Source of the DNA: Antedon mediterranea | Taxonomy: Eukaryota > Echinodermata > Crinoidea > Comatulida > Antedonidae | Direction: 5' to 3' | Length of the DNA: 64,000 nt | Assembly: GCF_964355755.1 (NCBI RefSeq) | Contig: NC_092675.1 | Location: forward strand, 23,600,412 to 23,664,411 | Shown here: piece by piece, positions 7,966 to 43,383 of the stretch | Numbering within the stretch: the stretch's first letter is position 1 | Layout: every line of letters starts with the position of its first letter | Position numbers and translations under genes: made by a program | Notes under the pieces: model-generated | The model's database searches: none | Told to the model about the DNA's origin: nothing | The model's input: only the letters and a program-made list of their open reading frames with translations

Positions 7966-10900
7966 ATGAGCGGATGCTGTGCATGTATTTTTCGTAGGCG
8001 TCGCCATCGTGATGCCCATGGTGGTAGTCGAGATTCTATTGTACCTGTTGATCGGGACAGTTCCTTTCACATCTTTCCGAGGGGCCAGGAAAACAGAGCA
8101 GTTGAACTTGATGAGGTCAGATTTTGATTTTTTATGAGGGATGAAATATGTCCGATATTAATAGAGATACTGTAAGATAAAGCGAATTATGTTCTGTAAT
8201 GTTGATAGTATTATTAGTACTGTAGTATGAAATATGTGTTAAAATAATATTGAAGAGGATACAAAAACAGAATATCATGAAGAAAAAAAAAGATAGAAGA
8301 TGTGTAAAAAATTTTATTGAAAAAGAAAGAATGAATAAAGGTGGTGGTTAACGATGGGTGATATAAAAAAAAAGATAAAACGAATTTAGTCGGGCACCCC
8401 TTTTCTTTTTATATAAAACAGTTTTTATTAGTAATAGTACATATATTTTTGTTATATTATTAGATGGGCCTTAATTCATAATAAAGTATTAAGACTGTTT
8501 AATCTATTGCATTATTGTCAAAAATGCCAGACTGACTTAGATCTTTGTGTTCCAACATGTTCTTTTTTTCTTGACAGTCTGATATGATGGGAGTTCGCAG
8601 TACACAGCTTTCTAGCAATGGAAAAAATGGTAAGAAATATATCAATTATGATAATTTGAAAATATAAAATGTTGATATTGCTTTACGCTGCAGTAACCAA
8701 TTGGGTCAACCGGCTCAGCTACAGTGATTAAGTTCATTTAGATTGACCCTGGTCTCCCCAATTTTAGTTTTTTTTTTGTTATGTATACTGAAATAGACCG
8801 AATAAATAATAAAATGAAATTAACAGGATGAGGCAACTTGAAAGCTAATTACTTAAATCCGAGAGTGAATGGCACTCGTTTACAGGTATAAGTACATTTT
8901 GATTAATTGTTTATGAGTTCAGACATGTTAGTAACTTGGTGCAAGCCAAAATTGATGTCATAGGATCAACAGTCGATATAGTGGACATGCAAATCTAATC
9001 CCAAATAAGTATAAAAGAAATCAAGTTGATCATATTATTGATTTTACTGTATATTAATATGATTAATGAATTTATTTGTATAGGTGTAAATCCCTTAGAA
9101 TTGAAAGCTGATTTTAGTGTATGTTTCATCGGTATGCTGAATGATACACATGGACTACCACCATCACAAGAAGATGATATAGATCTTGTTCAAGTCCTTG
9201 ACACTGCTCAGGTAGGCTTCAATGGTTTCAAGATACTAAAAAATGAATACATGTAAAACCTATTTATACAAAACAATTTGGATATAAAAGAAAATGAGAA
9301 CAACAAAGGCAACTACAGTACATGCCTGTAGAGATCAACTTCAGATATGTTTAGTTGTATCAGGGAAGCTGTAATTTCACTCTCTCTCACACTCAAAATA
9401 ATGGCAATTGTTAACATACATATAAGTCCTTCTCTTCTGTATCATAGAGCTGGAGTCAAAATCCTATTCAGCACTAAGTAGCATATACTAAAGTGTTTGT
9501 TATGGTGTGTATTTTGTATAAATGTACGAGATACTCACTATAAACAGTCATTCAATGGCGATGTTCCAATAATTTCACATTATCATTTCATTGTTTTCAC
9601 TTGTTCATCTTGACACAAATCAATTGTACTGTCCATTTATAATTACATTTCTTAAAACCTGTAGAGATATTTTGAATTCCGTTTCTATTGTCAGGTGTTA
9701 AAATTAACAATTATATTGACAGAAATGTTTTATTATTGTTTTATTTTATGTTTCACGTTTTCAGATGGAAGGAAAGTTCAAATCTGCTACAGATGAAGTG
9801 GATCCTGTTAGTCTCACCTTGTCCAAATATGGTATTAAAGTTAGTGACGGTCACCCCCACACTGATCAGGTTAGTCTTATGACTTATTTAATAAGCTATG
9901 AAACTTATTGATGCTCAACACACACCCCCCCCCCCTTTTCCTACTGATCAGGTTAGTCTTACGACTTATTTAATAAGCTATGAAACTTATTGATGCTCAA
10001 CACCCCCCCCCCCTTTTCCCACTGATCAGGTTAGTCTTATGACTTATTTAATAAGCTATGAAACTTATTGATGCTCAACACCCCCCCCCCCCCTTTTCCC
10101 ACTGATCAGGTTAGTCTTATGACTTATTTAATAAGCTATGAAACTTATTGATGCTCAACACCCCCCCCCCCCCCCTTTTCCCACTGATCAGGTTAGTCTT
10201 ATGACTTATTTAATAAGCTATGAAACTTATTGATGCTGAACACCCCCCCCCCCCCTTTTCCCACTGATCAGGTTAGTCTTATGACTTATTTAATAAGCTA
10301 TGAAACTTATTGATGCTCAACACACACCCCCCCCCCCTTTTCCCACTGATCAGGTTAGTCTTATGACTTATTTAATAAGCTATGAAACTTATTGATGCTC
10401 AACATCCCCCCCCCCCCCTTTTTCCTACTGATCAGGTTAGTCTTACGACTTACTAGTTATAGCTTAGTAGTTGTAGTTGCATTGGACTACTCTGCTCATG
10501 CTCTGGAGGCCTTGAGCTGGGTTAAGCCAGTGACTACTCATAGCCGTTACACCACTTAAAAAGATATTAACAAACTTACAATAAAACTTTCAAATCAAAA
10601 TACAAAGACAGACAATATTTACAATATTTTTAAAAGGAGTAAAAAATTAAAGGGATACATACATAAAATGACAAGTTTGTTTGTTAATGTGTTTTTTTAG
10701 CTTGTACGCAATAGATTTCGACTTGCAGATGTTATACGTGTTGTACATTATGAAGATGATATTGGCAGGCAATTACTAGCATTCAAAGTTGATAAGCACT
10801 TTGACAATATCTATGATTGTATGGTATTTGAATGCGATTCTCATGTGAGTAAACAATGATTAATTTTTTAGTAAACGCTTTCCAAATTTTTTGTTTACAT

Positions 10901-11445
10901 CCGAATACATAAACTTTTTATTTGAATGTTTTTTCCCAACAAATACTTGTAAGCTCCTCCAAATTGTAAAACAAATTAGTCATAGTTGCGTACGTCGAGA
11001 AACTTATTTTTATTAAAAAAAAGAAAGAAAAATAACCAAACTCAATTTATCAAAACATGGAATAATCATTAATTCTCTGCAGAATAATTAAGAAAACAAA
11101 ATGGTAAATTCAAAAGTATTTTAATATTTAATCCAAACATTAACAATAGTGGTGTAGGTCTAGGCCTTAAATGAATTGGTTTTGTATACACTTCCCCCTT
11201 CATTCGAATGTTAACAGTGTTGTTGTGTGTTGTTTATGTGTTCATGCAAAAACTCCCTAAGTGGTCCTTTTATATAATTTCCAGACTGTTTAAAAGGTTG
11301 GTATCTCTACAGCTGATAGTTTTGTCTTGTTTTCTAGGCTCAAGCCAAGGCGATTTGTAGTACCTTGAATGTGATATTCGATGCTGTCTGCAATATGAAA
11401 TTATCTGCTTTGAATTATTCTCATCTCAAATTCCAAATGATGTAA
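7966..11445 (+). CDS. ITGB1BP1: Integrin beta-1-binding protein 1 (ICAP1), PTB-domain adaptor
   Basis: Six exons: 7966..8115, 8578..8629, 9084..9211, 9765..9869, 10701..10844, 11338..11445; total 687 nt, 228 residues. The PTB domain covers about residues 70 to 220. It shows ADFSVCFIGML, DIDLVQVLDTAQMEGKF, LTLSKYGIKVSDG (cf. human VSKYGIKVS), DVIRVVHYEDDIGRQLLAFK (cf. human IRMVCYDDG...LLALK), MVFECDSHAQAKAICSTL (cf. human VYQCNSLEQAQAICKVL) and FDAV near the end. In vertebrates ICAP1 binds the membrane-distal NPxY motif of integrin beta-1 tails, antagonises talin, and binds KRIT1; that role is inferred here by orthology. The N-terminus differs from the vertebrate one: MSGCCACIF followed by RRRRHR. 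The intron after exon 4 holds a tandem array copying that exon's end. The stop lies in ATGATGTAAGTAGG, which also resembles a donor, so a further 3' exon in an alternative form cannot be excluded. Confidence 0.9.
9861..10455 (+). repeat. About 80-bp tandem array containing a repeated 5' splice site
   Basis: ACTGATCAGGTTAGTC recurs at 9861, 9943, 10021, 10101, 10183, 10263, 10345 and 10427. The first copy is the true end of ITGB1BP1 exon 4 (donor after 9869). Each unit continues with TTATGACTTATTTAATAAGC, GAAACTTATTGATGCTCAAC and a C-run of varying length. Copies differ mainly in C-run length and single bases, so the array is recent. Reading on from any copy meets an in-frame TGA (ACT TAT TGA), so use of a downstream donor would truncate the protein. 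Confidence 0.9.
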
Positions 11446-13249
11446 GTAGGAGATTAGAGAGCTTTTGTGATGAGAAGAACTGATGATGTCATCATATAGA
11501 GGCACTGTTCACATTCTGTACGTTGAGTTTTTTTGACAATTTTTGTGACTTTTTGGACACTAGTCAATTCTACTAAGATGAGGTGATAACCATGGAGTGT
11601 AATTTATGTATGATGTTTTAATTGAGAGCTATGACAATGGATAATGCTAAAAATGCTATAAATAAGAACAGTTTTGTTGCAAAACGAAAGCTCTCTATTA
11701 TCACTCATTCGACTTGTCACATCAACCAGACAAATCCTAGTTATTGAAATGGAGAAAACTAGCAATGTATGTTTACTTTTTTTTATATTGAGTTTTATTT
11801 TTATATATTTGCATTGCTGCTGAAACAAAATGTAGGTCACGCTCTATTTAACTGGTTATTTGTTAACAGTAGAAACAGGCCTGTGTTGATTTCTGGGAAT
11901 AAGTTAACTCGCCACAGCTGTGCAATACATAAAGACGATAAAAATATATTTAATAATTAGTTAGTAATTCACAGATGAAAGCATTGTAATGAATTGTGGT
12001 GGAATTTAATTTAAAAGCTATTTAAAAGGAATAATAACATCCCTATATTGTGCATTGTAAGGACTGAGGACTTAAACCCCATTAAACAATTTAGAATATT
12101 CTGATAAAGTTCAATGCAATCGTGCGTGATGCTTTTTATCTACAGTACGAACAGCTCCCAGTGTTTATGAATAATACAGGTAGTTAAATAGAAAAACAAA
12201 ACAAAAAGAATTTTTCAGAAAGCTTGGTGTTGGTTTTTCAAAACAATTTTGTATCTTTTTAGACTATAATATAAAATGTTGGTTTTAGGAATATTTCTGT
12301 ATTAAAAACAAGTACAAATGTATTAAAGAAAAATGAACAAGTCTGTTTTAATATGAAAGATAATTTAATAATAATATCTAAAATATTTTTTTTTATATTA
12401 AAATACCATTATGTTTGATAATGTTGGGACAATTATGTACTGTTTACTGTTGATTTAATTCAATCAATTTCTGGGAATGTTATACTCGGGGTATAATAAT
12501 CTCAACCTACCCTTGTTGAGTTGATTCTACTTCTTTCAACAGTATATTATGTGCAATTTATGTATTTTTACATGATAATAGGTATTTAATTATTATTAAT
12601 GCAGCACATGTTTGGGCCACACCCTTTTTGCTTCAGTTGCTTTGTTAATGGATTCTAATCTAATGTATATCCATAGGGTAAGATGTCAATCCACAAGTTA
12701 TGAGTAATTTTGCAATCCTACAATCCTACTCAAAATACACATGTTGCCTGTAGAATTAAACATATGAGAAAAAAAAGTGAAACTTACTGTACCAACGTCC
12801 TACCATCCATTCTTTGGCACAAACCCTATACAGTGATACACAAATTTAAGGAACTATTTCTAAATTTCATGAAATTAATGTGAGGAAAATATCTTAATTT
12901 TAAAAGGTCACTTTGTTGGGGCTCCAAAGTGACCCAGGAGTGCTACAGCATAACATATGATTATGTGTAGTTTGATCTTGTGCACTTGACATTAATCGTT
13001 TCAAATTAATTAATTAAATTTCAGTATATCACCGGGCGGTTTAGAATTAATGTTCTTTGCCTGTTGTGTTCATATATATATATAAATCCAAAGGCAAATT
13101 ACTGAAAAAAAATGACAATGCTGTGGGTATCAGTGGCTGGATCTCAATGGAGATACAAAAATAAAAAGCGAAAAGCTAAATCAAAACGATAAAGTAAACA
13201 GCCAGAAAAGTTAGCAGAGCTTTCGGGCAACACTAGCCCTTCATCAGTG

Positions 13250-13292
<43 letters not shown>

Positions 13293-14650
13293 ATTTTATT
13301 ATGGTATAGCATTTAGGGGCACACACGATACCCTCTTTGACAGCAAATAAAAAATTACGAACTTTTTACATCTATAGTTAATGTTTGTCCATAATAAAGT
13401 AAACAAAATCCTTGATCTGCCCTGTAATGATTAGCAATATAAAAATATCCTCAGATGGTGGCTAATTGATACTGCATCAAGAAAAATTAGTTGGGTCCAA
13501 ATATTGAACATTATTACTGTAGTGCAAGGTATAACAACTTTTACTTCTTGTGTCAATCAAAAAAAGTGGATTATTAATTGTATTAGTAGTAGGAAGAAAT
13601 GCTAGCATGAGTGCCACACCTCAAATATTGACTCATAATAGTAAGCTTTAGTCATGGATAACCTTACACCTTCATACAGTATTCATATTATTTCCTCATA
13701 ATAAAAAAAAAAATCATTACAAATATGTGTATACTGTGTACATTATATAATGAATATATTCATAATAAAATACAGGTTAAATAGCAGTGTACACATTTAA
13801 ATTATGGTGTTAAATTCTTGTGTATATTTATTAGATCATAGACTGTACTGTAGTTAAAACAATAGATCTCAACTTCTATTGTGAGGTACATTAGAATAGG
13901 AACATATAATGTAACTATTGATGGAACTTGCAATATAAAATAAAGTTGAAACTGTAGATATAATACAATAATGGAGTAGATCTTGCTGCAACTCATGTGT
14001 GTAAATTATTCATGCATCTATGATTGGTATAATGACATAATAAAATTGTTTATGCTTGCGTTGTTACAATTGTACCATATTGAAAGTTGTACCATACTTT
14101 TCTGTCCTAAACCTTGATTTAGTTAGGGTTTTTTTTCTTCAGGTTTATGTAAATTTAATTGTAATGCCCAATAAAAACATTTCAGTGTTTGTAGTATATT
14201 TGTAAATGTTGCACATTTTCCTATTTTAATTAATTATTATTGATATGTATCAATGTTTATTTTTGGTGTAGTAAAATATGTTTTTTTTTAATAAATTAAC
14301 AATTTGAATGTTACATTTCATGATTATACCTTATTCTCATGTACTAGTAGCACTGCTTCTGTATTTTTAAGGCCCTCCCCATATCCACTTTTATGATGGG
14401 TCTGGGCTTTCTGCATTGTCACTCCGTCCTGAGAACGATCAAAGCATATTGATCGAAATGTTGAAAAAACAGTTCTTTTCAGAACTAATATACGTGGTGT
14501 ACGCAAATGTAGATCAACAGAAAATAAAATTAGTTACTGTTTGATACACTTTTAACACACTATATGATATGTTAGAGCTCCACAGTTTAAAAATAATCCT
14601 GGATCCTTCCATGGATCTGATGTAGTGTGTCTTGTTTGTTACATGAGATC
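11446..14650. other. Intergenic / ITGB1BP1 3' flank
   Basis: AT-rich sequence after the ITGB1BP1 stop, presumably including its 3' UTR. The only structure noted is the repeat at 13088..13290. No coding exon is supported. Confidence 0.5.
13088..13290 (-). repeat. Interspersed repeat copy with (TA)n tail
   Basis: Shares AGGCAAA-TACTGAAAA, ATGCTGTG, TCTCAATGGAGAT, AAGCTAAA, AAAGTAAA and GCAGAGCTTTCGG with 60048..60205. Here it reads on to a CCCTTCATCAGTGCA-like end and a TA dinucleotide run at about 13251..13285. The reverse strand (CTGATGAAGGGCTAGTGTTGCCCGAAAGC, broken here into CTGATGAAGGGC and CCCGAAAGC parts) is reminiscent of ends of invertebrate retroelements; the class is not assigned. 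Confidence 0.5.
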
Positions 14651-14652
14651 AA

Positions 14653-15193
14653 AGTACAGTACTGTAGTCCCTTAATAGGGGTGTCCCGGAGGATGGGTTC
14701 TAGTACAGTACTGTAGTCCCTTAATAGGGGTGTCCCGGAGGATGGGTTCTAGTACAGTACTGTAGTCCCTTAATAGGGGTGTCCCGGAGGATGGGTTCTA
14801 GTACAGTACTGTAGTCCCTTAATAGGGGTGTCCCGGAGGATGGGTTCTAGTACAGTACTGTAGTCCCTTAATAGGGGTGTCCCGGAGGATGGGTTCTAGT
14901 ACAGTACTGTAGTCCCTTAATAGGGGTGTCCCGGAAGATGGGTTCTAGTACAGTACTGTAGTCCCTTAATAGGGGTGTCCCGGAGGATGGGTTCTAGTAC
15001 AGTACTGTAGTCCCTTAATAGGGGTGTCCCGGAGGATGGGTTCTAGTACAGTACTGTAGTCCCTTAATAGGGGTGTCCCGGAGGATGGGTTCTAGTACAG
15101 TACTGTAGTCCCTTAATAGGGGTGTCCCGGAGGATGGGTTCTAGTACAGTACTGTAGTCCCTTAATAGGGGTGTCCCGGAGGATGGGTTCTAC
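14653..15193. repeat. 49-bp tandem repeat, about 11 copies
   Basis: Unit: GTACAGTACTGTAGTCCC, TTAATAGGGGTGTCCCGG, AGGATGGGTTCTA. Successive units start 49 bases apart (14653, 14702 and so on) and are almost identical; one unit reads GGAAGATGGG. Each unit contains the perfect palindrome ACAGTACTGT. A diverged single unit in reverse orientation is suggested near 21218..21258 (CAGTGGACACCCCCATCCC). It lies in the gap between convergent ITGB1BP1 and CCM2. Confidence 0.92.
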
Positions 15194-17100
15194 TGTATTG
15201 TCTTCAATGGAAACAAAAAAAAAACTCAATTATATTTTATTATTTAAAACCAATTTATATTTACACTTTATTAAAAGTTTTAGCTATTGAAACCGTACAG
15301 TAAATAGTTTACATGTAATTTAAGTTATCATCATATGCCTACCAATACTAGACATAGATCTATATATATAAAATATACAATATATATTATTGTAAAAATA
15401 GTTTCCACAGCAATTTCATATGAAATGTATACAGTACCAAACATCCATTTTAAAATGTTGATCTATAGCAGGAGCAGATTATTGTTGAATAGTGCTCCCC
15501 CATTAACAAATCCTGGATCATCAGTTCTACCAAACCAAACGTTTTCAGACCTAATGAGCATGGCTGGCATTTTTTTGCTTAAGTCCAGATAGGCAAGTGC
15601 TTAAGTGAAAAAACCGATGCTTTATTCTTATCAAACCAGTTCTTTTAACTTATGGAATGGACTTTGTCATCTAAGATTTAAGAACACAATATTGCCTAGG
15701 TTATTTTTTTTATTTTCATAATTTACAAAATCATTGACTTAAAACAAAGTTTATATTATATTTTTGCTAAGAATATTAAATGCATGACTTATTTTTTTTC
15801 CATTCTGTCCTTTTCTGTGCTAGATTTCATAATGTAGTATTACAGATTATAATCTTTTGCTTTTATAGGCTGGTACTTGGGTACATTAAAATAGTTCTGA
15901 CTAGATATAATGAGAATAACAGTTAAATTTTTTATTGAAGTAAATAAAAAAAAATATAAATAGATTTATATGTTCAAACACAGTCATCGACACTTACATT
16001 TAATGTTGTTTTTAATTTTATCAGTTTAAAACATACTGAAAAAATACAACATTGTGTATAGTTTAAAATGTGTTATAAAATATTGTACCCAATTGTAAAA
16101 ATATTTTCCACCATAGCACGACTAGAACAGCTATTTCTTACACAATTTGGTTTGTTCTTTTCGAGTAAAGTATTATTCATTGAAGACCGATTATACATAT
16201 TTTACTGAAACTATGTAAATGCTATAATATTAAAAACAAACAACATGAAAGACGTTGGACTAAACCGGTACTTTAGTATTATAACCATCAACATGATGGA
16301 TCTGTATGCACTTTCTATTGTTTAACACAAAATACCAATGTAAATTACATCTTATTAGAAACATGAAACAGATAGTTAGATCTGTTTTACTAATTGTATA
16401 CATTTAAATTACTGTACCAATACATAGATCTCCTAGTCCGTTCTTTCGGAAGACAATCATATATAAAACCTAGAAAACTAGGCCTAAACAAGATGAGTAC
16501 ATGGATGTATAAATAAAACATTAATATAGCTAGTCAGTATACAACACATTGTCTGCATAATAAATTATCATCATCGATTCGTTGATCATGCTTTGGATGT
16601 ACAGTTGGGATGGGTATTAACTAATACAGTAATATCAAGCCTTCAGTCAGGATGTATTAATATGTGTTAATTTTTTCTCCAAAAAAAGAGCAAGTGCTAG
16701 TTTATTTTTTTGAAGAAAATATTTTATTAGGCCTACAGTAAGGTCTCTAGTATGAAAAGAACACATCAAGAAAACCCTCTGACTAACAGGCTTGCTAGTG
16801 TGTGTGTTACTCAGTGTATGCCCATCTGTGCAGAGCTTTGAAAATATAATGTAGAAGTTTGATTTTGAATGAACTTCTTAATGTCACGGTTCTGAATCAC
16901 AATCAATTGTTAATAAACTTTTGTCAAGGTTTCAAATATTATAAAGTGAAAATTCAACTAAAAAATACATAGGAAAGTAATTTTAAATCGTGACAGTTTC
17001 TAAGTGCTTCCACATCAGAAATTTGTTTCTCCAAGATATGAATGCCAGCTGAACAAATGATGCCAGGGAAATATTGCCTTTTTCAGTGAATATAATTTCT
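15194..17100. other. CCM2 3' flank / probable 3' UTR, no other gene
   Basis: AT-rich sequence lying downstream of the minus-strand CCM2 stop (17101). The most likely content is the CCM2 3' UTR plus spacer. No open frame here shows domain or splice-site support. Confidence 0.4.
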
Positions 17101-20100
17101 TCAGCTGTCGTCAATACTCTTTTCAAGTTGGGTAACATCGTTAAATGCATCTCGCAGGGCACGATCTAATTCATCCATCTCGGATGGGATGGATTGTGTA
17201 TAAGGTCCATTATCTGCTAATATCGTTGATGATGATCCGTCACTCAGTGTCCGCGTTTTCCTTCTTCCTGCAGTACCGCTGTATATGCCATCCCCATTAG
17301 CACTACCTATTCCTCGTTTATCTAAGTATTCTTCAAATGAATCACTATCTCGTTCCGGAATGAAAGGTCGTAAACCTAGTTAAGAAAAAGTAATAGTAAA
17401 AGAATTTTGCAAAAAACATACATTTTATAGTTCTCGCCGTTTTGGTAACATTCTTCCATTATCAAACATGACACATTGACTCAAAGTTGTCAAGTGCGTG
17501 GCAGCCTAGCTAGTCCTGGCAGATTTCCAGTACGTTGAACTTTCAGTGAAAAAGAAAGTTCAAAACATTTTCATTTCCCAAAATTCTGTGGAATTTATTT
17601 TCATTAAAAAGTTCTTTTATTCTGCCAAGGAAAACAATGTTTATGTCTCTAACATTTTACATGATGAATAAAGCATTAGATTTGATTTTGATAAACTTTC
17701 AACAGAAGGAAATTTCAAACGATTAAAATATAGCCGATGTAAATGGAAAGAATTAATTAATTAAATTTAATTACCTGGAAATAAATACATTCTCTTGTCG
17801 CCATAGAGATGATGTAATCGTTGACAAAACTCTTGTATAGAAACATGTTGACGGTATTCACGCAAAATAGTGGCAAATTGTTGCAATTCATCTGCATTTA
17901 GTTTACTTCGTAGCTATAAAATTTAAAAAAAGTGGTATTTCTTTTATTATCATGAATCATGTGGACAAGAGTACCAAATACAAAAAAACTAATAGTGATC
18001 TTGCCCTTACCAGGTACCCATTTGTACACCTGGGTGGAGAGAGGCAAACGTAAGTAAAGTGTCTGCCTAAGGATATGAGCAATGCGTTGGATTCGAACCC
18101 ACAATCAGTTGTTCACCAACACACAAGACCTTACATATAAAAAACCACGACAAACATACACTTAAAAAGTCTATACTTACAACTTCTATATATTCCTTTA
18201 AAAGTAGTGTAACTGTTTTACTAAAGTCTTCAGGCTGATGTGGATGGTACATAGGATGCATAGCTCTGTAAACAATACGATAATACGACTTAATTAATTT
18301 AATTCTAAAAATAATTAAATTTGTAGTGACCTAAATCATGATTAATTAATTCCGCACGGAAAAATTTTGTACGATAGTTATTTTTTTCTGTGACCCCTAT
18401 TTAAGAAATTTATAAATATCATGTATGGTGATTTTTTTATTACCTATTGTTTCAAATTATAGTAATTTTTATAACCTTTTGTGAATTTTGATACAATTCA
18501 GTGTTATACTGCAAAATTAAAATGAGTGCTTTTAATAAATAAACCAGAAATTATAACATTTCTGGATGCCCAACACTAAATATGCAATTTTGTTTGTAAA
18601 TTTATGAACTTACGGAGATGGAATATCCACTTCAGTGGGGCTTACTGTGCTTCTCCCTGAAATAAATGTATATGTCATTATTAAGACATGCATTATTTAG
18701 GTATATCCTAAACACTAATGTAAATACAAAATTGAATTAGTATAACTGTGACAAAAAAATAGTACAAAAAAACTCAATCTTGAATGTGTCAACCAACCAT
18801 ATCACCATATAGAAAACTTTATGTAATAAAATAAATGTTTGTACACAATCCAAAGTTATTTTAAATGTACTTAAACCTCCCTCTAATCTAGACAAAACCA
18901 AAGTACTAGGGTTTTTTTTCCACTGGAAATCTGCCTTGTTTTAGACTCGTTTGTATAAATGTAATTATGTAAGAATTAAAAAATAAATATCTTCATTTTT
19001 TTATTAATTCATATATTTCTTCCCAATTTCAAACGTGATTAATAAACAATATAGAATCAATATATCTGATGACATAAGCTTCCATTTAAGGCGATTTCAT
19101 CTGGTTATAAAAGTGGTTTATAGAATAATTTAAAGCAAATCTACCTGACGTTGAATGTGACTTTGCTACATCAATTAAGGAATAATCAAAGTATTTCATA
19201 GTAAGTTCAGTGTATACAATATCAAAAATCTGATGAACAAGACTGCAAAACTGTTCTGCTTGCTCCTACAAGAATATTTAAAAGACATTATTTGGAATTC
19301 AAATACACAATGCAAATTCGAATGCAGCCAGGAAAGTGGAAATACACATGTAATATTACAATGTTTAAATAACACTCTTTTCTGAAATTCCTTGTGGATT
19401 TGTTTGTTTGTTTATTTTTATATTGGCCGACCTCTCTGTACACCGGGATAACCCCCTACTCGTCTCGAAAGATGTACTCGATTCTTTAAAGTGCACACGA
19501 GCTAGTTGTGTACACTGGACCTAGGGTTTATAGTCCTTATCCAAAAAGACTTGTTCTACCACCAAAACAATGGAGTGAGTGAGCCTCGAACCCCTGCCGA
19601 TGTTATGGCTACGGTTCCACTGTCTTAACCGCTCAGCCACCCCCTCACTCGTTTACACATTTAAACAGGGTATATATCAGTATCAAACTTACTAAAATTA
19701 TATTGTCATTGGTCTAAAAATAACTATCTGTCTCTACAGTTTCTTGTCCTAAACTATTTACAAAATCAACAGTGGATGTGTTTGTAGTCTATGAGTGCCA
19801 AAATACATGGATAAACCTCTTTCCAGGGCTATTGTCTGTTTATTCAGGTAAGCATACAATACAATATGAAAAATTAAAATACATACCTTATTTGGACTAA
19901 GAAGAACAACTAAATTACAAGATATTTGTTGGTTTTCTGAGGAAGCTGAAAAAAAAAAGAAATGTATACAATAAATTATGATAATACCTGTTCCCATTCA
20001 CACAGGTATGTGGTAACATGTTCTTCAGCAATGAAAGACATAGGGCGGATTGCTATAAGCGGTCTATAACCGGTCTTAGCGCTTAGCCGGCTATAATTCA

Positions 20101-23100
20101 TGACGTAGCAAGTAGTCTTTATTTATAGACCATTGCTATACAGCGGTTTAACCTGTAAACGGTCTTTAAAATTAAAGCCTGCTCGAAGGAGTCTTAAAAC
20201 AGTCTTAAACCTCTATTTTTGTTGCTTTTACGTATTATTTATCGTCAAAGACAACCAATTGAACGAGTTTTAAGTGTTAAATCAAATAATAATGGTGATT
20301 TTATTCTTATATAGGCCTAGAATGGATTTTCTCGCGTAGAAATGTACGTACTGTTATGATTGTGAATTGAACAAGCGTGACGAACATTACCATATTTGGT
20401 ATTCTACGCGCAAAGTACGCCCTCAATTTGTTACTTTACGTGGTCTTATTTAAGACTGTTTTATAGCAATGGTCTATCAGGAATGGCTTTAATAAGACTG
20501 TCTATCTGATAAAGCCGGCTTTAATCGGGGAGTTAAGACCATCAGTTAAGACTGTTTTATAGCAATCCACCCATGACTGTATCTAAACAGAGAATTGGCT
20601 TCTGAGGGAAGTTTCCTTTTTTTCCCTATCATTTGATGGGAACAATGACATGTGCATAGCAAACAGGATTGGCATGATGTGAGGATAGGGATAATCTCCT
20701 CAGTGTGATGATTATGGTTGTAGATGATGTACTACAGTGTATAATATAACCTAAATCATAGAGATAAAACAAAATTCATACCAGTTTTAAGCATAACAAA
20801 ATGATCAGCATCATCTCGGATATGGCTAACTGCAGCTATATTGTGTATTGCAAGCCTTTCCAATGGTTCCTACAAAAAAAGTATTTTAGGAAGAATAGCT
20901 TATTATGTAAATAATTTATAATACTGTAATTTTTATTAAATTCACATTACGGTACATCAGATTTTAATTAAACTGTCAATATGATCGCTACAATAGGCTT
21001 CTTTTCAAATTAGTATAATAAAATGATAGCTTTGTAAAATTCAGTCACTATTTTCTTCATTTTACAGTAAAACAAGCAATTCTAATTTTTCAACTTATAG
21101 TAGGACCTATGGGATCATAAATACAACTAACACTCTTGAGACAAACTATTCAGGAGACACTTTCCTGTAAAACGACCAAAGGAGATACGTTTAAACTGTA
21201 CTGGCCAATAGCTACTGTATTCAGTGGACACCCCCATCCCTAATACAGGTTTTACTGTACTAGCAACGTACAAAAAAGTCAATACAATTTAGTAATTTAG
21301 GTAACAATACCTATTTATGTTTTTATTATCTACTATGTTTGAATAAGAATTTTGTTGTCATTACTGCATGTGCCCTATAAGACAGGCAAATGACAATTAG
21401 GTGACATTATTTTTAATTTTAAAATTTATTGAATAAACAATGAAATGATTATTAAGTTTTAATACCTCTCCATCTCTTCTAGTAATTTTTATTTGCCTGA
21501 CAGACAAAGAGACAATTGCATCCAATGTCCTATCTTTTGTTTTTCTTGCCAATTTATTCTCTTTCTGGAAAAAAAAAATATAAACAAATTATATTTAAGA
21601 CTGAAAGAAATTTTAAATATATCTTTAAAAATGAACTGATGTCTTTATCTTCATCGTTATGTCTCACACAATCATCATGTTGATTATTACGGAACTAGTT
21701 GGTGTGGTGGCAGTATTCACAGCCTATTTTGGTTTTGATTGTTAGGATTTATTTCTTATTTATTTTTTAAAAATTATTTTCCTTTCATTCATTCATTCAT
21801 TCATCTTTTATTTCGGAAAAAAAAAAAAAAAAAAAAAAATGCTTTTATTTTCATTTTATATGTCTGTAGAAGCATGGAGGTTAGTAAATTTAAGTTAGTA
21901 AATTTTAAGTTTTAAAACAACAAAAAATTCGATCTGAAATAAGAGTAGCTTTAATTAATTAATAATTTTATTATTATTAAAAACATTATTGATATAAATC
22001 TTTATTATATTATAATTCTATGAACAGTTTAAACACTTGTTACAGAAATTATGAATAAATAAGTTTCTTCCTCTATCCAATTAGTAGTACTAATATGCTT
22101 TTCATAGAAAAAAACACACAATATTAAAATGATGATTTGCAATGATGGGTGTGTCTCTTTTATTTCCTGATTTATAAATGGCAACACATGTTCTTGACTT
22201 TGTAAATAACAAAGTACTAGTATTTATGACAGCATTTATTTGCAGTATTGAATGTGGTATTATTTATTATACAATACTGAACATGAATTTCCCTGATGGT
22301 GTTTTTATCAATTTCCTTACAAAATGAATGGTTGGAGTGGGTAGGGAATGGACTGGGGTAGGGAATGGATTATCAAGGCTACATTAATATACCCTTGGTG
22401 TGATCTGGAAACTACAAATTCCTTGACTTTGGCTCAGTGACCAAAAGTATGCTGTTAAATGGCAGGGGTTTTCAACAGTTTTTAACCGTGGGCTACTGTA
22501 GATTGTAATTTACAAATAATCTTGCAGGCCGGATCTTGAGTGAAGGAGAACCCCTTTCATAACATGTACTTTTATTTATTAATATTATTATTATTAAAGC
22601 ATTTCTTTTACTGTATTTTGAGGTAGAATAACACACTATACTGTACATATATGGCCAGTGGGCAACACAAATCATACCCCTCAAACCAGACAGAACATTG
22701 AACAATGCCATTTATGTTTATGGGATTGGCTTAAGTTTTAAACAAGTTAAAAGATGCTGAAGGTGCTGAGTAACCCGAGCCACGAGATAAAATGTTTACA
22801 AATTTACTTACACGGCCTTTGTCCAGATATTCTAATAAACCTACACGTTTACTTGCATCCAGGTGGCGAGGAACATCGGTTATTACTCCTAAAAACTGAA
22901 GCAAAATAATTGGCAAATTAAAAAAATGAAAAAGGTACAGTTTTTCATTGTTTTATTTTATTTCACATACATCTAAGAGCGATATCGTCAATTTCAGGAT
23001 GCCTTAAAGACTCAAATATAAATACATAAGATTAAAATATATATAACAATTCTTACTCATCAAAATGTACACAAAGTTAACGATCAGAAAATAAAAAAAA

Positions 23101-26100
23101 GAACAATTAATAACCTTAATTTTGAACATGGAAATATTGTTATAGAAAATGTTAAGTAAAATCATCAAGGGAAAGTCTATGAATGAAACCAAGTACAGTG
23201 CTCTATAGAAGATTTTAATATACAGTACAAATCAGTGATTCAGTTTAAATTTTCCTATTATAAAACGTATGTAATAGGACAAAAATATAAAAAAAAAATT
23301 ATACATTAAGATAAGAGATATAAGATATATTTATTCTTCCAATAAATTTTGGAAATTTGCATCTTTGGCATTGACACATTAAAATACAGAGCTCTTAAAA
23401 ACAGTTACCATACATAAAACATTAAAAATAATTTAAATACAAATGAGTTAAGAGATAAAATTACCGACGTACAGCCTGATTAAAATTAAATTGGATAAAA
23501 TTAATTCTTATATCTATCATGGATATGGATGCTCCATCAACAAAAGAAGCTTAAAAAAGCTTAATATCCTAGACTGCGTTTTGACTTAATATTACGATTA
23601 GTAAAAAGACTTATATTTTGGCACATGTAGCGGTACATACAGTATGTATAATATTTGTGTGTAGTTTTTAGACCAAATTGAAACGCTGACTGGTTGACTA
23701 AAATAAAAAGACAATAAATACAGACTTGTGGCAGATCTAGACACTTATCTAAAAGCTACAGTTATAAAAAAAAGTAATTGCATAAAAAAGCATTATATTA
23801 CAAAAAATGGTAACCAATTAAAATAATTCTGGTTTAGAATCAAACAAAAAGCTTAAACCGAGCTTGTAGAAACTGGAGGTCCTATAAAGTTAAGCAAATA
23901 ATGTATAAAATATTATCTTAAGTTATATTTTTTTAAATGGTCACCGATTTAATGGTGACTGTGTGCTCTACACAGAATGTATTTACTTTTAGATTGTGCT
24001 ATATCATTTAAACTCACATTAAAAAGAAAAGCAAATTTGTTTTCTATTCTTTAAGTACTACCCATTTTCTAACGACAAATTCAATTACATTTTACGTACC
24101 TGCACTGCATACTCAAATGTAATGCATTTACTAGCATCTTTTTTTTTTAAGTTCTAGTTGTTGGTTCAATTGTTAATCTTATAGTACTTAGTGATATTTA
24201 GTGTGATCAATGTAATCTCTTTTTTACATTTTGATGTTTTTCCCTCATGTGAATTAAACTCAATTCACCAATGAATAATAAAACATTTATAATAAATTCA
24301 TCATCTAACAATAGCAGTTACCAGTGTTAGTCTGCGATGGTTTACAAAATATATACTTTGAATTTTTACATGTTAAGTGGGAAAAAATAATATTTTCTCC
24401 ATTTCACTTATATTTGACCAGTGTCTTTATTTAGGAGTAAGCAACGATGAGTACTGAAAAGTGTTTTAAAATTAAATATATCATTGGTTGGTGCAGTGCA
24501 TTGGGGATCATGATTAACTTTAACTGCAGTTAACATATTTTATGCTGCAATATTGTATGATTTTATTATTTGATTTGTTTCTTCAATGTAATTCCTTGCA
24601 ATTAAACAGTGTGTGGGATTGCTTTTTGCATTAAACTTGAGTTGTGTATAGTAGTTACTGTGTGCAGTAGGAAAAATCATTTTTTGGACCAAGAATATTC
24701 AGTAACAATTAAAAGACAATTCAGCAACTGTATTACTATTATTACCTTAACTTCTAACTCTGTATAACTTTCAATAAGGATTGAAGCATCTATTCGATAT
24801 TCTGGTGGATTTAGCACCGTTGAATGTAGCCTACGTCTTTCTCCTGAATCTGACAAATCTGTTTCTTGCAAAGTAGCTGAAGCTGATGGAAGAAGTCCTT
24901 TGATACCTGACTGTGCCTAGAAATGAAAATTAACAATTTTATTTAGAACCAATGCTGACCAGGCCAATAATACTACGACTGAGCCAAGTACAGTATAGCA
25001 GTTCACACAACACAACAGCATGTAGAAAATACACAGATGGAATGGGGAAATAAAAGGTATCTCCTTTCGTTCTGACCTTGGTCATCGCGGTAGTTGTTCG
25101 TCATGTGATTCATCATGTTGTCACAAACGGCAATTGGGAAACTAGTTGTCAAATACAGTGACAAATACATTAACACATTTTGAAAAATCAAAGTATTAGC
25201 GAACTGCAAGATTGAGGGTTTAAAATAAAATATGCATGCCACTGCTGGCTAACATTGTTCATTATAAATGAAGAGAGCTTCCTCACACCAAAGTGTAGGC
25301 CTATCATATATATTATTAGTATGTTTACGTACGATTTTATGTTACTGTAGTAGAAATATAAATATAACGTTTTTAATACCAGGGTTCTAAATAATAATAA
25401 ACACGTGACACGCAATAATGGATGCTAACCAACCATGTTGTGTATAAATGTATACAAAGATATCTATACTAACATCAGCTTATGCTTATAAATAAATTTT
25501 ATAATTGGATAATATAAAAGCAATTGAATTAATTATTTAGGTGAAAGATAACATTACCACTAGCATAAAAATGTAAACTAGCAGAGCAAACATTTCTTGT
25601 AGACACTTTCTTTCCTTCATGACGACATAAAAATACCAACTTGAATAAAAATGCACCGTATATATTTCCTGTAGCTAATTTATTCAATGATTTAATTACA
25701 AAATATTTTCCAAAAAATGCTAATGTTCAACATTAGGTCTGGCAGTATAGAATATAGATGCACAAAACACTGCACTTTCAAAACAGCCCACACTCCAGAT
25801 ATAATAGTACCAGTGTCTAGTGTAGTACTACTATCTATCTAAAGTACAAAAATGCATACAATTGGTGAAATCGGGTGTGTGGGTGTGGTCATTATTTTCT
25901 AAAAATCATCAAATTTTATGAATATTTCTTTATTACTGATTCATACTAATATGTATAATGACACGATTCGTACCGTTTTAGTTATCTTATATAAAGGCAG
26001 AAACACAAAAACAGTAAAATAATACGACCGGTTTTTGCTCAGATTCCAGCGGTTGGCCCTTACCACACTGCACTGGTGGTTTTGAAAAAAAACAACAATT

Positions 26101-26169
26101 TTTATACGATTAAATTCATCCTCATACCTTTTTTGATCCTGGTTTCCTTCTATGCTCTTCCATCCCCAT
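17101..26169 (-). CDS. CCM2: CCM2 (malcavernin), scaffold of the CCM complex
   Basis: Eleven minus-strand exons: 26128..26169, 24746..24916, 22812..22895, 21466..21564, 20782..20869, 19887..19945, 19145..19265, 18614..18656, 18181..18265, 17775..17913, 17101..17375. They sum to 1206 nt (401 residues; human about 444), with phases consistent throughout. The start is MGMEEHRRKPGSKK. The PTB domain shows ELEVKFLGVITDVP, LEYLDKGR, AIVSLSVRQIKITRRDGE, LAIHNIAAVSHIRDDADHF (human PIHDIAAVSYVRDDAAHL) and FCSLVHQIFDIVYTE. The region aligned with the human CCM3-binding LD-like segment reads MKYFDYSLIDVAK. The C-terminal harmonin-homology domain shows LLLKEYIEVLRSKL, QQFATILREYRQHVSIQEFC, HHLYGDKRMYLFPGLRPFIP and a short acidic tail. 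By family knowledge CCM2 binds KRIT1 through its PTB domain and PDCD10 and MEKK3 elsewhere. Its 5' end faces TMEM68; its 3' end faces ITGB1BP1. Confidence 0.93.
18003..18130 (-). mobile_element. tRNA-derived SINE fragment
   Basis: On the reverse strand the segment has a pol III B-box-like GTGGGTTCGAATCC followed further on by the inverse of TACCCATTTGTACACCTGGG and GGAGAGAGGCAAAC. This arrangement recalls SINEs of marine invertebrates with a conserved central block. It lies in a CCM2 intron; subfamily not assigned. Confidence 0.45.
19425..19651 (-). mobile_element. tRNA-derived SINE, copy 1
   Basis: On the reverse strand it reads GAGTGAGGGGGTGGCTGAGC, GGTTAAGACAGTGG, AACCGTAGCCATAACATCGG and GGGTTCGAGGCTCACTC: a TGGCNNAGNGG-type A box and a GTTCGAGGC B box resembling a Ser/Leu-type tRNA head. 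The body shares TGGTAGAACAAGTC, AAGGACTATAAACC, TTTAAAG and ACGAGTAGGGG with 51014..51322 and 60524..60878. It lies in a CCM2 intron. Confidence 0.75.
20043..20572. mobile_element. Hairpin-type MITE in CCM2 intron
   Basis: The left end GGGCGGATTGCTATAA is matched by the right end TTATAGCAATCCACCC in inverted orientation. Both subterminal regions repeat words such as GGTCTATA, GGTCTTA, AAGACTGTTTTATAGCAAT and AAGCCGGCT. About 530 bp, without a coding frame. Confidence 0.7.
21784..21839. repeat. (ATTC)n and poly(A) simple repeats
   Basis: A short CATT tetranucleotide run (21784..21805) is followed by a run of about 21 A residues (21819..21839), inside a CCM2 intron. Confidence 0.85.
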
Positions 26170-27435
26170 TGCATGGTTTACTATAAAATAATGTGTATGG
26201 AGAGTGTACACATTTATATTATTTTTTATTGATTTTTAAAACTTTTCAGTTCCTGCGTTCTTTCTGTGTTTGTTGTTTGGCAGCAGCTCTCATTCAGATA
26301 GGCGGTGTGACCTCTATACCAATGTGTGAAATTATCATTGACATGACCTTTTGTTTTGTATCCGTTAGGTCAATGGTATCGCTTGACTGAGTATCGATTC
26401 TGGATTCGGTTATTTATTATTTATAGCCTAAATCATCCTATCAGGAGGCCAAGCCTAGGCCTAGATTTTTATCAAAAGCATTACAGCAGAACAGGAATGT
26501 ATGTACTATAGTCCCTAGCCCCAGTAGCTAGGCCTAGGCCTAATACTTATCATATAAAGTGTAGGCCTACTACTACTGTCTGTACTGTAGTTTAATTAAA
26601 TTTAATTAATATAGAAAAAAACAAAAGCAAGATGATGTAGGGCCTAGCTAGGCCTATAACTATTATAGGCCTAGCCTAGTATGGCCCTACTAGCTAGTAG
26701 GTTAGTAGTAGGCTAGTGGTATAGTTAGTAGGCCTCCCTAGGCCTCTAGGCCTAGGCTAAGCCTCTCTAGGCCTATGCCGAGTATCTAGGCTAGCTAGGT
26801 TTGGTTAGGTAGGTAGGGGCAGAAGGTCTGACGAAGGTCCAAAATGCACCTAAAACCATCACCGCAGCTGAGTGGGTGAATGCTTTTAAATTGGTGGGTA
26901 AGCTTGTGAGAGTGCAGTGGCACTACGGCCTGTTACGGTAGCATACGTATAAACTGTAAATATAATGTCGGGAGAATACTACGTTTATATACATTGATAC
27001 TACAGTATTTCATTGAGAATTCAAGATTCTTGCTGTACAGTGGATATTTACACTGAGTATATATTTATTATGCACTTGTCAATTGTATGACCCACTATAC
27101 CCAGGAGAGGTGCATCATTTGTCCGATGTGCATCATACCTTATGAATACCATGACACACCTGTGCGTAAAAAATATGACTTACCTTTAGGTGACCATGAC
27201 GCACCCATTTTGACGCATTGTGACCATGTTGATAACGATATGGTGGGTGGTAAATTGACGGACATTTGACACATTATTGTTGATTGATTTGACATACCAT
27301 TACCATCTACTGTAGGTTTTTTGACACACCCCTGCATCAATAATTATTTGTAAATGACTCTCCGACGCACTTTTTCTGGGGGTCATATAGTCCATTATAT
27401 TTACAGGACATTTGTTTCTTTTTTTTTTTCAGATA
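26170..27435. promoter_or_regulatory. Divergent CCM2 / TMEM68 5' region
   Basis: About 1.27 kb separates the CCM2 start (minus, 26169) from the TMEM68 start (plus, 27436), and the region should hold both transcription starts. It contains the dense TAGGCCTA cluster at 26440..26820 and a TGACRCA-rich stretch at about 27085..27370. TMEM68's first coding exon is preceded by a polypyrimidine tract and AG (27420..27432), so at least one untranslated exon must lie upstream, possibly ending at a donor-like GTGGGTAAGC near 26894. No core promoter element was confidently identified. Confidence 0.5.
26440..26820. repeat. TAGGCCTA-rich low-complexity cluster
   Basis: The palindromic words TAGGCCTA, AGGCCTAG and TAGCTAGG recur many times within about 380 bp (for example around 26530, 26560, 26640, 26680 and 26730..26800). 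It is the densest occurrence in the window, between the divergent CCM2 and TMEM68 genes. Confidence 0.8.
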
Positions 27436-30400
27436 ATGTGTTTTGACGCTATATCTAACCTCACCATTGTAATAGCTTTAAGTGATGTAATTGAGCGCTT
27501 TGAAATTGTTTCTTGGTTATTATGGCTAACAACTCCAGTTGCTATTACCTTCCTCCTGCCATTAGTTATACTACTGCTTGTATACGGATGTGTACTATTT
27601 CTTCACTTCTACAAATCACGTCATAAACTTGTTGATGCGTATTCCAAAGGGTATTGGGATGCGGCAAAGGTTAGCATTGCAACATTTTGGGAAGTACAAG
27701 GCAAAATATGGCATGGTAAGTTTTAGTGAAAAAGATATAAAAATGTTGTTAATGTTTTATATGTTATAATATTTCTTTTTGCAAATTAAGTGTTGTTTTC
27801 TCATATCAGCTACCATAAATAGTCTTTAAAATATCTAAACATTCTGTAATTTGAATTTTGAATAAGACAAAATGAAATTTATTTTATTAGCTAAAAAAGA
27901 GATCTGTCTGGGTAAATTTCTAAACACTTGATTGCTTAACCAGGGAGTTACATTTACCCTGCATGGTAACAATGCTTTTATTAACCTCACAGTAGTTCGT
28001 TATTAGGGAGGTTTCGCAACCTTACGAATACGATAACGAAAACGGATACGTCATACATTTGTGAAACTTTTGAGCTGATCCCCATTTCATATTCGTAAAG
28101 CGTATTCTTGTTGACGAATATCACCAGTCATATTCGTAACTACAAAATGAGTATAGTTTTTGATCTATTTTGCACATTTTGCATTTGAATCAGGAATGAT
28201 TCATGTTTATTGAAAGTAATTTACTAAAGTAATTTACTAAAATGCCAAGTCAATTTTTATAATAGCAGTTTTTAAAGTCCTCACTCGCTTTGATTTTACG
28301 CTAGGCCTAGGCAGCCAAGTACCTGCGCTTCGCTCAAATCATAGTCAATAGAAAGCTCAAATTTACCGCAGTCATATTTTGGACGCGCCTCAATATTTCG
28401 TTGCCATGCGAAACAGATTTTTTTATGGCTTACGAAAACGAATACGTGTGCGTGACGTATCCGTTTTCGTTATCGTATTCGTAAGATTGCGAAACCTCTC
28501 TATTGTTTGTACATATTGTAATAAAAATCAGTGAGCGAAGATTAGTAACTAACAAATGCGATAATTTTACAATTGTGAACTTTATAATAGAAACCCTCAA
28601 ATAGATATCCTACAGTAGTTACAATGTAAAACAGATTTGTTTTTATGATCAATATTGTCATATATTTTCTATTACAGGTTATGAGATAAGAGGCTTAGAG
28701 AAGCTCCCTACAGATTCTGGAGCTGTGTTAGTGTTTTACCATGGAGCAATACCTATTGATTTCTATTATATATTGTCTAAAGTGGTTCTTTATAAGGAAA
28801 ACACAATGCATATTATAGGTGATCGCTTCCTTTTCAAAGTTCCAGGTTAGTGCACAATAACCTACCACTATTATTATCATATTCATTCACAGGTACCAAG
28901 TTAATTTTACCAATGTAAACGCAATTATACATTATAAGTTCACTATGCAACATGCATATTAAATATGCATTTTAATAATAATAAATATATAGTTATGTGA
29001 GTCATCATATATTGGTAATAATTCTAAATTGGATAGTAATAGGCAATTATTTAATAATTCTCATCTATCTGGTTGATAAATCTGAGTATGAATTTCGGGG
29101 ATGAACATAGTAGAAAAATATACCCAATTATTTCCATGGTTTACGTACCATCATTAGTGTATGCTCTAATTAATTGTATGCAAATTCACAAATTAAGTGA
29201 CCATGAAAATTTAGAGTGTGTTCAATTTCAAATCATAATTATATTATTATAGCATATGACTATTATAGTTTGTTTGTTTAGTATCCGACGAATTGAATGT
29301 TTGTGACTTTGATGGCGAGAATAATTAATTTTTTTTGGAAAATTTGTTTTATAACATCTAAAGTAGATTTTTGTAAAAAGTAGCTATAAAAAGAGTGAAC
29401 ACATCAGTGTAATTGTAAAAGGCTTCCTACTTTCTAGGTGTTTTATGTGGTTATCAGATAGTCTATATTGTTTTGACAAATCTGTAACATGACCACAGTG
29501 CTGATTTTGCCATTTTTTCTCTAACTGACATGCACAATATGTTTGCATCCACATATTTCAATTGATTATTTATTTAATATCATATAAATCAACAATTAAT
29601 CAAGTAATCAAATGAAGTAGGATCTACTTTTGTTATCAATAGTTTTTTTTCTTTTAGGTTTTAAATTGTTAATGCAGGTATTTAACGTAACAGTTGGCAG
29701 TTGGGAGGAATGTACGGACATGTTGAAGAAGGGTCATCTACTTGCCATTTCACCTGGCGGTGTACGGGAAGCATTTTTTAGCAACGAATACTATCAACTA
29801 AAATGGAAGAATAGGATAGGATTTGCAAAGTGTGCTGTATCCGCCCAAGTGGTAATAACCCTTTTTGTTCTAACATTTTACTGCCAAGCCAAACCTCTCA
29901 AATCTCCTGTTTTGTTACTAATAGTTACTTAATATCACTCTCAATGTTTGTTAATAGTATTTAAAGAAAAAGTATAGTTCTTTCTATTGTTTGACTATCA
30001 ATCATCATCATCAATCATACACACATTTATTCAGTTATTTGACAACAACTGGGGCCAGCACTAAAAGCAGTAGCTTGTCTCATGAGGGCCCCTACAATAC
30101 AAATATGCAAAATACATAAAAAGAAATACTGTATAAAACAATAAACAATAAAATAAGTAAAAAAAATCGAAATAGATAAAATATGAAGTCTCATTTTTGT
30201 GCTAAAAGAAAAACAGAAATACGAATGCTAAAGTTTGCAATTACAATTCAAAAAGTTTGTACTGCTATTCACTTGGTTCTGAGATAGAGAATTTTCTTTT
30301 CTCAATTGCAAAAATATATGCTTTTCAAGTAAGCTATTAATTTTTTAATTATAAATGAGCATTATCTACTAAATTTGTCAATGCTCTCCAATGAAATGTT

Positions 30401-32130
30401 AAGTGTAACATTTTTTGTGTGTTTTTTTTTATTCCAGCCAATAATTCCAATTTTCACTCAAAACTGCCGTGAAGCATTCCGAGCCCTTAGTTTTGGTCGT
30501 CCTATTTTTAAATGGTTGTATGAGAAAACAAGACTTCCAATTGTGCCAATATATGGTGGATTTCCAGTTAAATTAAGGCAAGTGAATTGATATAAAAGAA
30601 GAATCATTGGGCTTGTTCAGGCTTAGTTATTAATAACTGGGTAAAGTTAGTGTAGAGATTCATCTGGATCTCTGTATAGTATTCATACATTTTTTCTCTT
30701 GGATGATGATCCAAAGGGAATAAAACCAAGCTTTACTCGAGCTTTCGCTGGTTCAATGACACATTCATGAGTGATTCCATGTCCTTGGAACTGTTACAAT
30801 GAAATCTTTTAGTTGGTGTAGCGCCATCTATAGAAGTTACATGGACTCACTCATGAATAAGCTGTGTTGTTGAACCAGCGAAAGCTAGAGTAAATACGTA
30901 TGGTTACAGTAGTTCCTACCCACTAAAGTTAGCGATAACTGTACATAAGAAACCAACTTTCTAGGAACTCAGGACTTGTTTCCGCAGCCATAACAAAATT
31001 ATCAGATAATTAATACAATAATCACATTATCAGACATTACCAAACAACCACAATCACAACGCAACGATTTGTTGTTCAGGTCAAAAGTTAATAATTATCG
31101 CATTTATTTGATAAATATCTGATTTGAATGAGTTAATTATTGGTTACCGTAAATTGTGGCTGCGGAAACATGGCCTTAGCCTAAAGTAGAACATGTGCAA
31201 TCCACGCAACTCAACTGTGCGTATGTCAACCTATTTTGTGTTACTGTGAATTGAGGTCCATGCGCCTTAAGTTGCTTGGAGCGCATATGTTTACACAGTT
31301 GAGTTCTGTGTCGACATAAGCCCACCTTTATTATGCACCATGGAGACGATTTCAAATCAAGTTACGTTTAGAACTAAAGGATGAGTTTTCTTGTATTTCA
31401 GGACATTTATTGGTGATCCAATTGTATGCAAAGCAGGAACCACCGCTGAACAGCTTGCATTAGAGGTACATTTTAAAACATAAATTATGATGCAACTAAT
31501 GAATGTTTATGAGTGCAATGGTACAAATATTTTCATTGTTTGACAAACTTTGTATAAAAAAAAAATAGAAAAAGTTATCCATTACACTACAGAGCAAAAA
31601 TATTCCATTGCACAAATAAAACATTCATTATTTTTTTATACGTGTAAATTAGATTTTTGTATTGAAACTAGATTTTTTGTCAAAGGGCATGATTGCATAT
31701 TTTTTATTTTATTTCCAAACCTAACCAACAGCAAAATTAATTGGCCAATAGCAGGAGGGTATCAACATGCACTGTACAAATGTAAATATAGTACAAATTT
31801 GCACTCGAATATATTTTAAAGTGCACTTTTGTTGATTTAGCATGGGGTCGATGGAGTATGAGTGTGACCTGCTTAGATATAATATGAAATAAAATGATTT
31901 TGAAGAAGAGAAGACTAAATGCCCATACAAAAAAATAGAAAAAGTTATCCCTTACAGAGCAAAAATATTCCATTGCACGAATAAAACATTCATTATTTTT
32001 TTCTACTGTAGATTATATTGTAAAATTGTGATTTATTTATTTTCAGTGCCGCAATGCTTTGGAACAACTCATAGTTGAACATCAAAAGATACCAGGTAGT
32101 ATACTACATGCACTGTTTGAGAGATTTTAA
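27436..32130 (+). CDS. TMEM68: TMEM68, ER acyltransferase (DAG/MAG acyltransferase-like)
   Basis: Six exons: 27436..27715, 28678..28845, 29658..29851, 30438..30577, 31402..31465, 32047..32130; 930 nt, 309 residues (human about 324). A hydrophobic membrane segment spans about residues 27-58 (WLLWLTTPVAITFLLPLVIL). The acyltransferase motif FYHGAIPIDFYYI gives H115 and D121. Other family blocks are GDRFLFKVPGF, LAISPGGVREAF (residues 179-189), RIGFAKCA, PIIPIFTQNCREAFR, WLYEKTRLPIVPIYGGFPVK, IGDP and LIVEHQKIPGSILHALFERF. Vertebrate TMEM68 (also called DIESL) is an ER protein that makes triacylglycerol outside the DGAT1/DGAT2 route; activity here is inferred. Intron 4 has a GC donor (exon end TTAAG then GCAAGT), required by the reading frame. 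A non-coding 5' exon is implied because AG lies three bases before the start codon. Confidence 0.93.
28006..28500. mobile_element. MITE with about 46-bp terminal inverted repeats
   Basis: The left end (GGAGGTTTCGCAACC, TTACGAATACGATAACG, AAAACGGATACGTCA) is repeated almost perfectly in inverted form at the right end (TGACGTATCCGTTTTCG, TTATCGTATTCGTAAG, GCGAAACCTC). About 490 bp, non-coding, within TMEM68 intron 1. Confidence 0.85.
29998..30135 (-). mobile_element. LINE 3'-end fragment
   Basis: On the reverse strand it reads TGTATTGTAGGGGCCCTCAT, GAGACAAGCTACTGC, GGCCCCAGTTGTTGTC and AACTGAATAAATGTGTATGA, matching the plus-strand element at 43893..44192. It is the 3' UTR and tail of a non-LTR retrotransposon, in TMEM68 intron 3. 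Confidence 0.7.
30732..30894. mobile_element. Short MITE with 24-bp inverted ends
   Basis: TTACTCGAGCTTTCGCTGG at the left and CCAGCGAAAGCTAGAGTAA at the right form an inverted repeat with one mismatch, extended by GTTCAA / TTGAAC. Inner TCATGAGTGA / TCACTCATGA words are also inverted. TMEM68 intron 4. Confidence 0.8.
30970..31178. mobile_element. MITE with TTTCCGCAGCCA ends
   Basis: AGGACTTGTTTCCGCAGCCA at the left is matched by TGGCTGCGGAAACATGGCCT at the right, in inverted orientation. The interior is AT-rich (TTATCAGATAATTA) and non-coding. It is adjacent to the MITE at 30732..30894. Immediately downstream (31205..31305) another inverted pair (CAACTCAACTGTG / CACAGTTGAGTT) suggests a third small hairpin element. 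Confidence 0.7.
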
Positions 32131-43000: not shown

Positions 43001-43383
43001 ATAAGCCTACTAAGGCAAATCTGAGTAAATAGCATGGCTGTCAGTGTCAGTGCGTGTCTGCTTCATTTGTTTTGGACTTGTGGCAGCAGTGTGGGTGAAT
43101 GTTTGTTACATTGGATTAAGCTCGAGTCGAGAGATTGAAGTGCGAATGTATGTGGAATACTGTATGTAGCATCAAGAATTCCATGATGTGGTCAATTTTC
43201 AACTGGAGACTTTCTAAACGACCATTGAATACATCACAAAGCCATATCCCAAAAAAATGTTTATAATTTGTGTATACTAGGCCTGTTCTGTAGCGATTTT
43301 CCAGCACAAGAACAGACATTTTATATTTCTCCCAAAGTTTCTAATAAAGAATTTATTTTCAATTTCTACAGGTAAACCTCAAT

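Follow-up and report, generated by a model that had tools for sequence, protein, structure and literature searches.

Adjacent ICAP1 and CCM2 genes in a crinoid genome, a possible relic of an ancient PTB-adaptor duplication

Why do the genes for two adaptors of one complex lie side by side in Antedon mediterranea? The products of ICAP1 (ITGB1BP1) and CCM2 both bind KRIT1 in mammals (PMC6663315). In the window, the whole 64-kb stretch analysed here (positions 23600412-23664411 of contig C6, in a genome of 354 Mb in 18 contigs), ICAP1 on the plus strand and CCM2 on the minus strand stand tail to tail, with their coding ends 5.7 kb apart. The reading we lean towards, by a small degree, is that a PTB-adaptor gene was duplicated locally in ancient times, that the two products now work in one complex and that the adjacency was kept in this lineage. 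In the open-access literature, we found no paper on an ICAP1-CCM2 linkage or on a sister relationship of their PTB domains.

The plus-strand gene (7966..11445) consists of six coding exons (7966-8115, 8578-8629, 9084-9211, 9765-9869, 10701-10844 and 11338-11445), which join in frame through AG acceptors and GT donors to give a 228-aa product. The Pfam ICAP-1 family PF10480 matches this protein with an E value of 1.6e-17 (64.6 bits against a cut-off of 25), the PID profile scores 28.6 bits, above its cut-off of 20.9, and the top PDB matches are the human ICAP1 entries 4dx9 (E 1.2e-16) and 4dx8 (E ~1e-16). This confirms the gene as a genuine ICAP1 orthologue. Like human ITGB1BP1 (2p25.1), it encodes a PTB domain with the KRIT1 contact residues. 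Numbered by our own alignment onto the published human contacts (D93, Q96, L135, I138, I139, D146 and C184; PMC6663315), six of the seven are identical (D93, Q96, L135, I139, D146 and C184) and I138 is replaced by V. The gene also shares with human ITGB1BP1 the two introns that flank one exon, one ahead of the fourth strand and the other ahead of the last helix. The human exon between these introns is, we presume, the one skipped in ICAP-1 beta. The N-terminus (7966-8040) reads MSGCCACIFRRRRHRD; its MSGCC start and basic run are unlike the Ser-rich stretch that we take to form the human N-terminus, and the cysteines together with the basic run are suggestive of lipid anchoring. An 82-bp tandem repeat of about 7-8 copies (9860-10452) extends from the end of exon 4 into the intron. 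In this repeat, the exon-4 end together with its donor site (CTGATCAG/GTTAGTCTTA) occurs in eight exact copies, only the first of which is usable in frame because read-through hits a stop.

The minus-strand gene (17101..26169) has ten coding exons (26169-26128, 24916-24746, 22895-22812, 21564-21466, 20869-20782, 19945-19887, 19265-~19144, ~18263-18181, 17913-17775 and 17375-17101), with two possible splice choices at the exon 7/8 junction. Phase and similarity revealed the short exon 19945-19887, which codes for the seventh PTB strand. The harmonin-homology domain is recognised by CCM2_C (PF16545; E 2.3e-29, 101.9 bits against a cut-off of 27.3), a profile with one full-strength copy genome-wide, inside the window. 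In the PDB, the protein matches the C-terminal half of human malcavernin (E 5e-32) and its PTB domain matches that of human CCM2 (4wj7, E 9.8e-25); the generic PID profile reaches 13.6 bits, under the cut-off of 20.9. The gene is thus confirmed as a genuine CCM2 orthologue. Human CCM2 (7p13) and CCM2L (20q11.21) have the same combination of a PTB and a harmonin-homology domain and likewise ten exons, whereas the gene is single copy here. Exon 9 measures 139 bp in the window gene and in human CCM2 alike (PMC6825194). Both gene models proposed as complete in the initial annotation were confirmed, with coding ends at 7966 and 26169 identical to those it gave.

Past CCM2, the order is a TMEM68-like gene, link-domain genes, an XK-related gene and a receptor guanylate cyclase. 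The first is an acyltransferase gene (27391..30587, plus strand; joined exons match PF01553 with E 4e-11), which we take to be TMEM68; it lies head to head with CCM2, their start codons about 1.3 kb apart (26169-27436). The XK-related gene (XKR4/6/7-like; 43348..48454, plus strand) matches PF09815 in three exons (E 5.6e-59, 5e-19 and 3e-22), and the receptor-type guanylate cyclase gene (52558..59175, minus strand) encodes kinase-like and cyclase domains (PF00211 E 4e-24, PF07714 E 2e-7). Within a link (Xlink) domain gene, and on its strand, an open frame of 870 aa (35485-38094) encodes a LINE reverse transcriptase. A tandem array at 55075-56888 has open frames in several phases, and a stretch of ~0.9 kb is doubled in it (compare 55128-55355 and 56058-56285). 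To the left of ICAP1, translated segments, read without Pfam, gave an extracellular-matrix-like gene, a LINE, a Tctex-type gene, an alpha-amylase and a laminin alpha.

The order CCM2-TMEM68-XKR mirrors two mammalian pairs, as CCM2L lies directly beside XKR7 in pig (PDRG1, XKR7, CCM2L, HCK; PMC10734178) and TMEM68 lies beside XKR4 in cattle (XKR4, TMEM68, TGS1, LYN, with a tRNA listed between XKR4 and TMEM68; PMC9498432). On the CCM2 side, the locus therefore probably preserves an ancestral arrangement, and human CCM2 at 7p13 is probably the copy that moved. The neighbourhood of CCM2 in the window resembles that of CCM2L, not that of human CCM2, which suggests that CCM2L rather than CCM2 held the ancestral place in vertebrates. 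The initial annotation had set the window against the human positions 2p25 and 7p13; vertebrates do have the pair apart, but this contrast overlooked CCM2L, whose XKR7 neighbourhood matches the one found here.

On the ICAP1 side, CPSF3 and ADAM17, which we take to be neighbours of human ITGB1BP1 with CPSF3 directly adjoining, were not found beside the gene. Genes linked in mammals lie elsewhere in this genome: C7 carries a CPSF73/100-type gene, C11 carries TGS1 and C1 carries the best syndecan. Macrosynteny of a whole paralogon was also considered, that of the syndecan-matrilin regions, which presumably occupy 1p/2p/8q/20q in mammals. This candidate (PMC1464127) was rejected, as four markers gave it no support and only a ribonucleotide reductase small-subunit gene (RRM2) was found on C6 (C6:30.55M), 7 Mb off, with a second RRM2 at C11:19.55M.

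Such dispersal bears on an alternative history, in which ancient sister paralogues were once separated and then rejoined by a chance rearrangement in this lineage. That the adjacency comes from one genome, that ICAP1 and CCM2 are apart in vertebrates and that several genes next to ITGB1BP1 and TMEM68 in mammals are on other chromosomes here would all suit this history. Nevertheless, we consider it unlikely: by a rough estimate, which assumes a gene every ~12 kb over 354 Mb, the chance that two named genes adjoin is about 1 in 10,000, and the CCM2 side keeps the vertebrate order, so that the locus was not freshly shuffled on that side.

To what extent the two genes are related can be judged from their PTB domains. 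Against a PDB set of 177,635 sequences, a CCM2 PTB profile made from this genome and human detected ICAP1 over the whole domain with an E value of 2.9e-7, the next PTB being GULP1 at 0.55. With the ICAP1 profile, GULP1 (0.09) came marginally before human CCM2 (0.17), and neither value was significant. Among the collected sequences, the CCM2 HMM scored ICAP1 at 33.5 and 24.5 bits compared with 14.9 for the next family, and the ICAP1 HMM scored this genome's CCM2 at 30.9 bits compared with 17.0; the best-control figure takes in SHC1 and control scores are thus overstated, which leaves the conclusions on ICAP1 and CCM2 unaffected. Comparing ten PTB families with hhalign, ICAP1 and CCM2 were reciprocal best matches (60/57 across 129 columns; the runner-up reached 43/38). 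In maximum-likelihood trees, ICAP1 and CCM2 together were split from the other sampled PTB families with 98-99% support in four alignments; a PTB tree had been suggested in the initial annotation. The AU test rejected the placement of ICAP1 with APBA, DAB, SHC, APPL, GULP or NUMB and that of CCM2 with APBA, DAB, SHC or APPL, at modest p-values (0.010-0.032) and on trees with long branches.

The sampling was without JIP, TBC1D1/4, RGS12, PID1, FAM43 and tensin and took in NOS1AP only in part; together with the long branches, this leaves the sister evidence short of proof. Still, the ICAP1 and CCM2 PTB domains are probably sisters, a relationship better supported than the retention of their adjacency. 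As the domains are mutual nearest relatives in the PDB profile, HMM, hhalign, tree and AU comparisons, the earlier proposal of an ancient duplication of a PTB gene gains real evidence, and on sequence grounds a duplication of this kind appears well supported.

It might be argued instead that the two are plain chance neighbours, that their PTB likeness is long-branch attraction of fast-evolving domains and that their common CCM role is coincidental. The long branches in the trees are in keeping with this, as is the PDB search with the ICAP1 profile, which does not tell CCM2 and GULP apart. However, direct profile similarity, which goes beyond tree position, singles out ICAP1 and CCM2, and other long-branch PTBs (APPL1 and APBB) do not join them, making this explanation decidedly unlikely.

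The introns do not help in this decision. ICAP1 and CCM2 have three phase-0 introns of the PTB domain in common: one follows the first helix, one lies 14 residues ahead of the VxH..DD segment and one precedes the last helix. In the same genome, all three are also present in APBA, GULP and NUMB, two of the three in ANKS1, and the third and probably the first in NOS1AP. As ancestral features of this PTB class, the three introns do not discriminate for ICAP1 and CCM2; intron positions were accordingly rejected as a sign of a private duplication, and the intron comparison suggested in the initial annotation proved uninformative. These DAB-like PTB genes resemble ICAP1 and CCM2 in fold and in the phase-0 introns just listed, yet in sequence they are markedly farther from ICAP1 and CCM2 than those two are from each other.

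The common partner of both adaptors, KRIT1, is encoded on C2, not on C6. Its locus was found by combining weak matches, namely two profile matches 16 kb apart that were resolved by reading the DNA, and includes a FERM part, an ankyrin stretch that matches Ank_KRIT1 with an E value of 6e-14 but misses that family's strict cut-off, and an NPFF motif, which we take to stand where human KRIT1 has its third NPYF motif. Searching the genome with the ICAP-1, KRIT1-NUDIX and KRIT1-FERM models found little because the exons are short. In mammals, ICAP1 docks on the first NPxY/F motif of KRIT1 and CCM2 on the second and third, and both proteins would presumably bind KRIT1 in this animal too. With KRIT1 on another chromosome, ICAP1 and CCM2 are linked, but the complex as such is not a gene cluster.

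Selection for co-regulation could in principle hold two partners of one complex side by side, and the binding of KRIT1 by both products in mammals (PMC6663315) is in keeping with this. ICAP1 and CCM2 are convergent, though, and therefore have no common promoter; the region upstream of CCM2 (26169-27436), possibly a promoter region, is common with TMEM68 and not with ICAP1. Given also the position of KRIT1 and the loss of the linkage in vertebrates, we regard co-regulation as highly improbable.

The 3' ends of the two genes are separated by 5.7 kb of intergenic DNA (11446..17100), which includes a 49-bp tandem repeat (14653-15192) of 11 copies that are 99% alike. No ORF exceeds 94 aa between 11445 and 17101, none of the segments there has a coding score above the listing threshold, and the gap gave no Rfam match. 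The separation of about 5.7 kb without a gene between, as first annotated, thus stands, with neither a convincing gene nor a sequence gap in this interval. That a misassembly fused two loci somewhere in this interval (11.4-17.1 kb), for example at the repeat, can hardly be credited, as neither the gap nor the rest of the window contains an N and all of it lies on a single chromosome-scale contig.

We return to an ancient local duplication with retained adjacency. One PTB-adaptor gene would have been duplicated locally into ICAP1 and CCM2, the tail-to-tail layout arising either through inverted duplication or through tandem duplication followed by inversion. This event would predate the split of this animal's lineage from vertebrates. 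Afterwards, CCM2 would have carried or gained the harmonin-homology domain, while both duplicates kept their binding to NPxY/F motifs on KRIT1. The block ICAP1-CCM2-TMEM68-XKR would have stayed together here, and vertebrates would have broken it after their genome duplications. That the present adjacency is a relic of the duplication is the best reading, although not a proven one. It resembles conserved tandem or inverted duplicates kept as microsynteny in that adjacent sister paralogues are found here too; it differs in that the age of the ICAP1-CCM2 pair would exceed the vertebrate split, and in that the adjacency is known from one genome. Whether the halves of a pre-vertebrate, possibly early animal, duplication still adjoin, the CCM complex having grown by duplication of an adaptor beside itself and the ICAP1-CCM2-TMEM68-XKR block being ancestral and dismantled in vertebrates, we regard as evenly balanced.

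CCM2 and ICAP1 have so far been studied as separate partners of KRIT1 in a vascular disease of humans. Should the two be sister duplicates, the division of the KRIT1 NPxY motifs between them would represent subfunctionalisation of paralogues, and their use of the same surface would be explained. Overlapping binding would then be predicted in early-branching animals.
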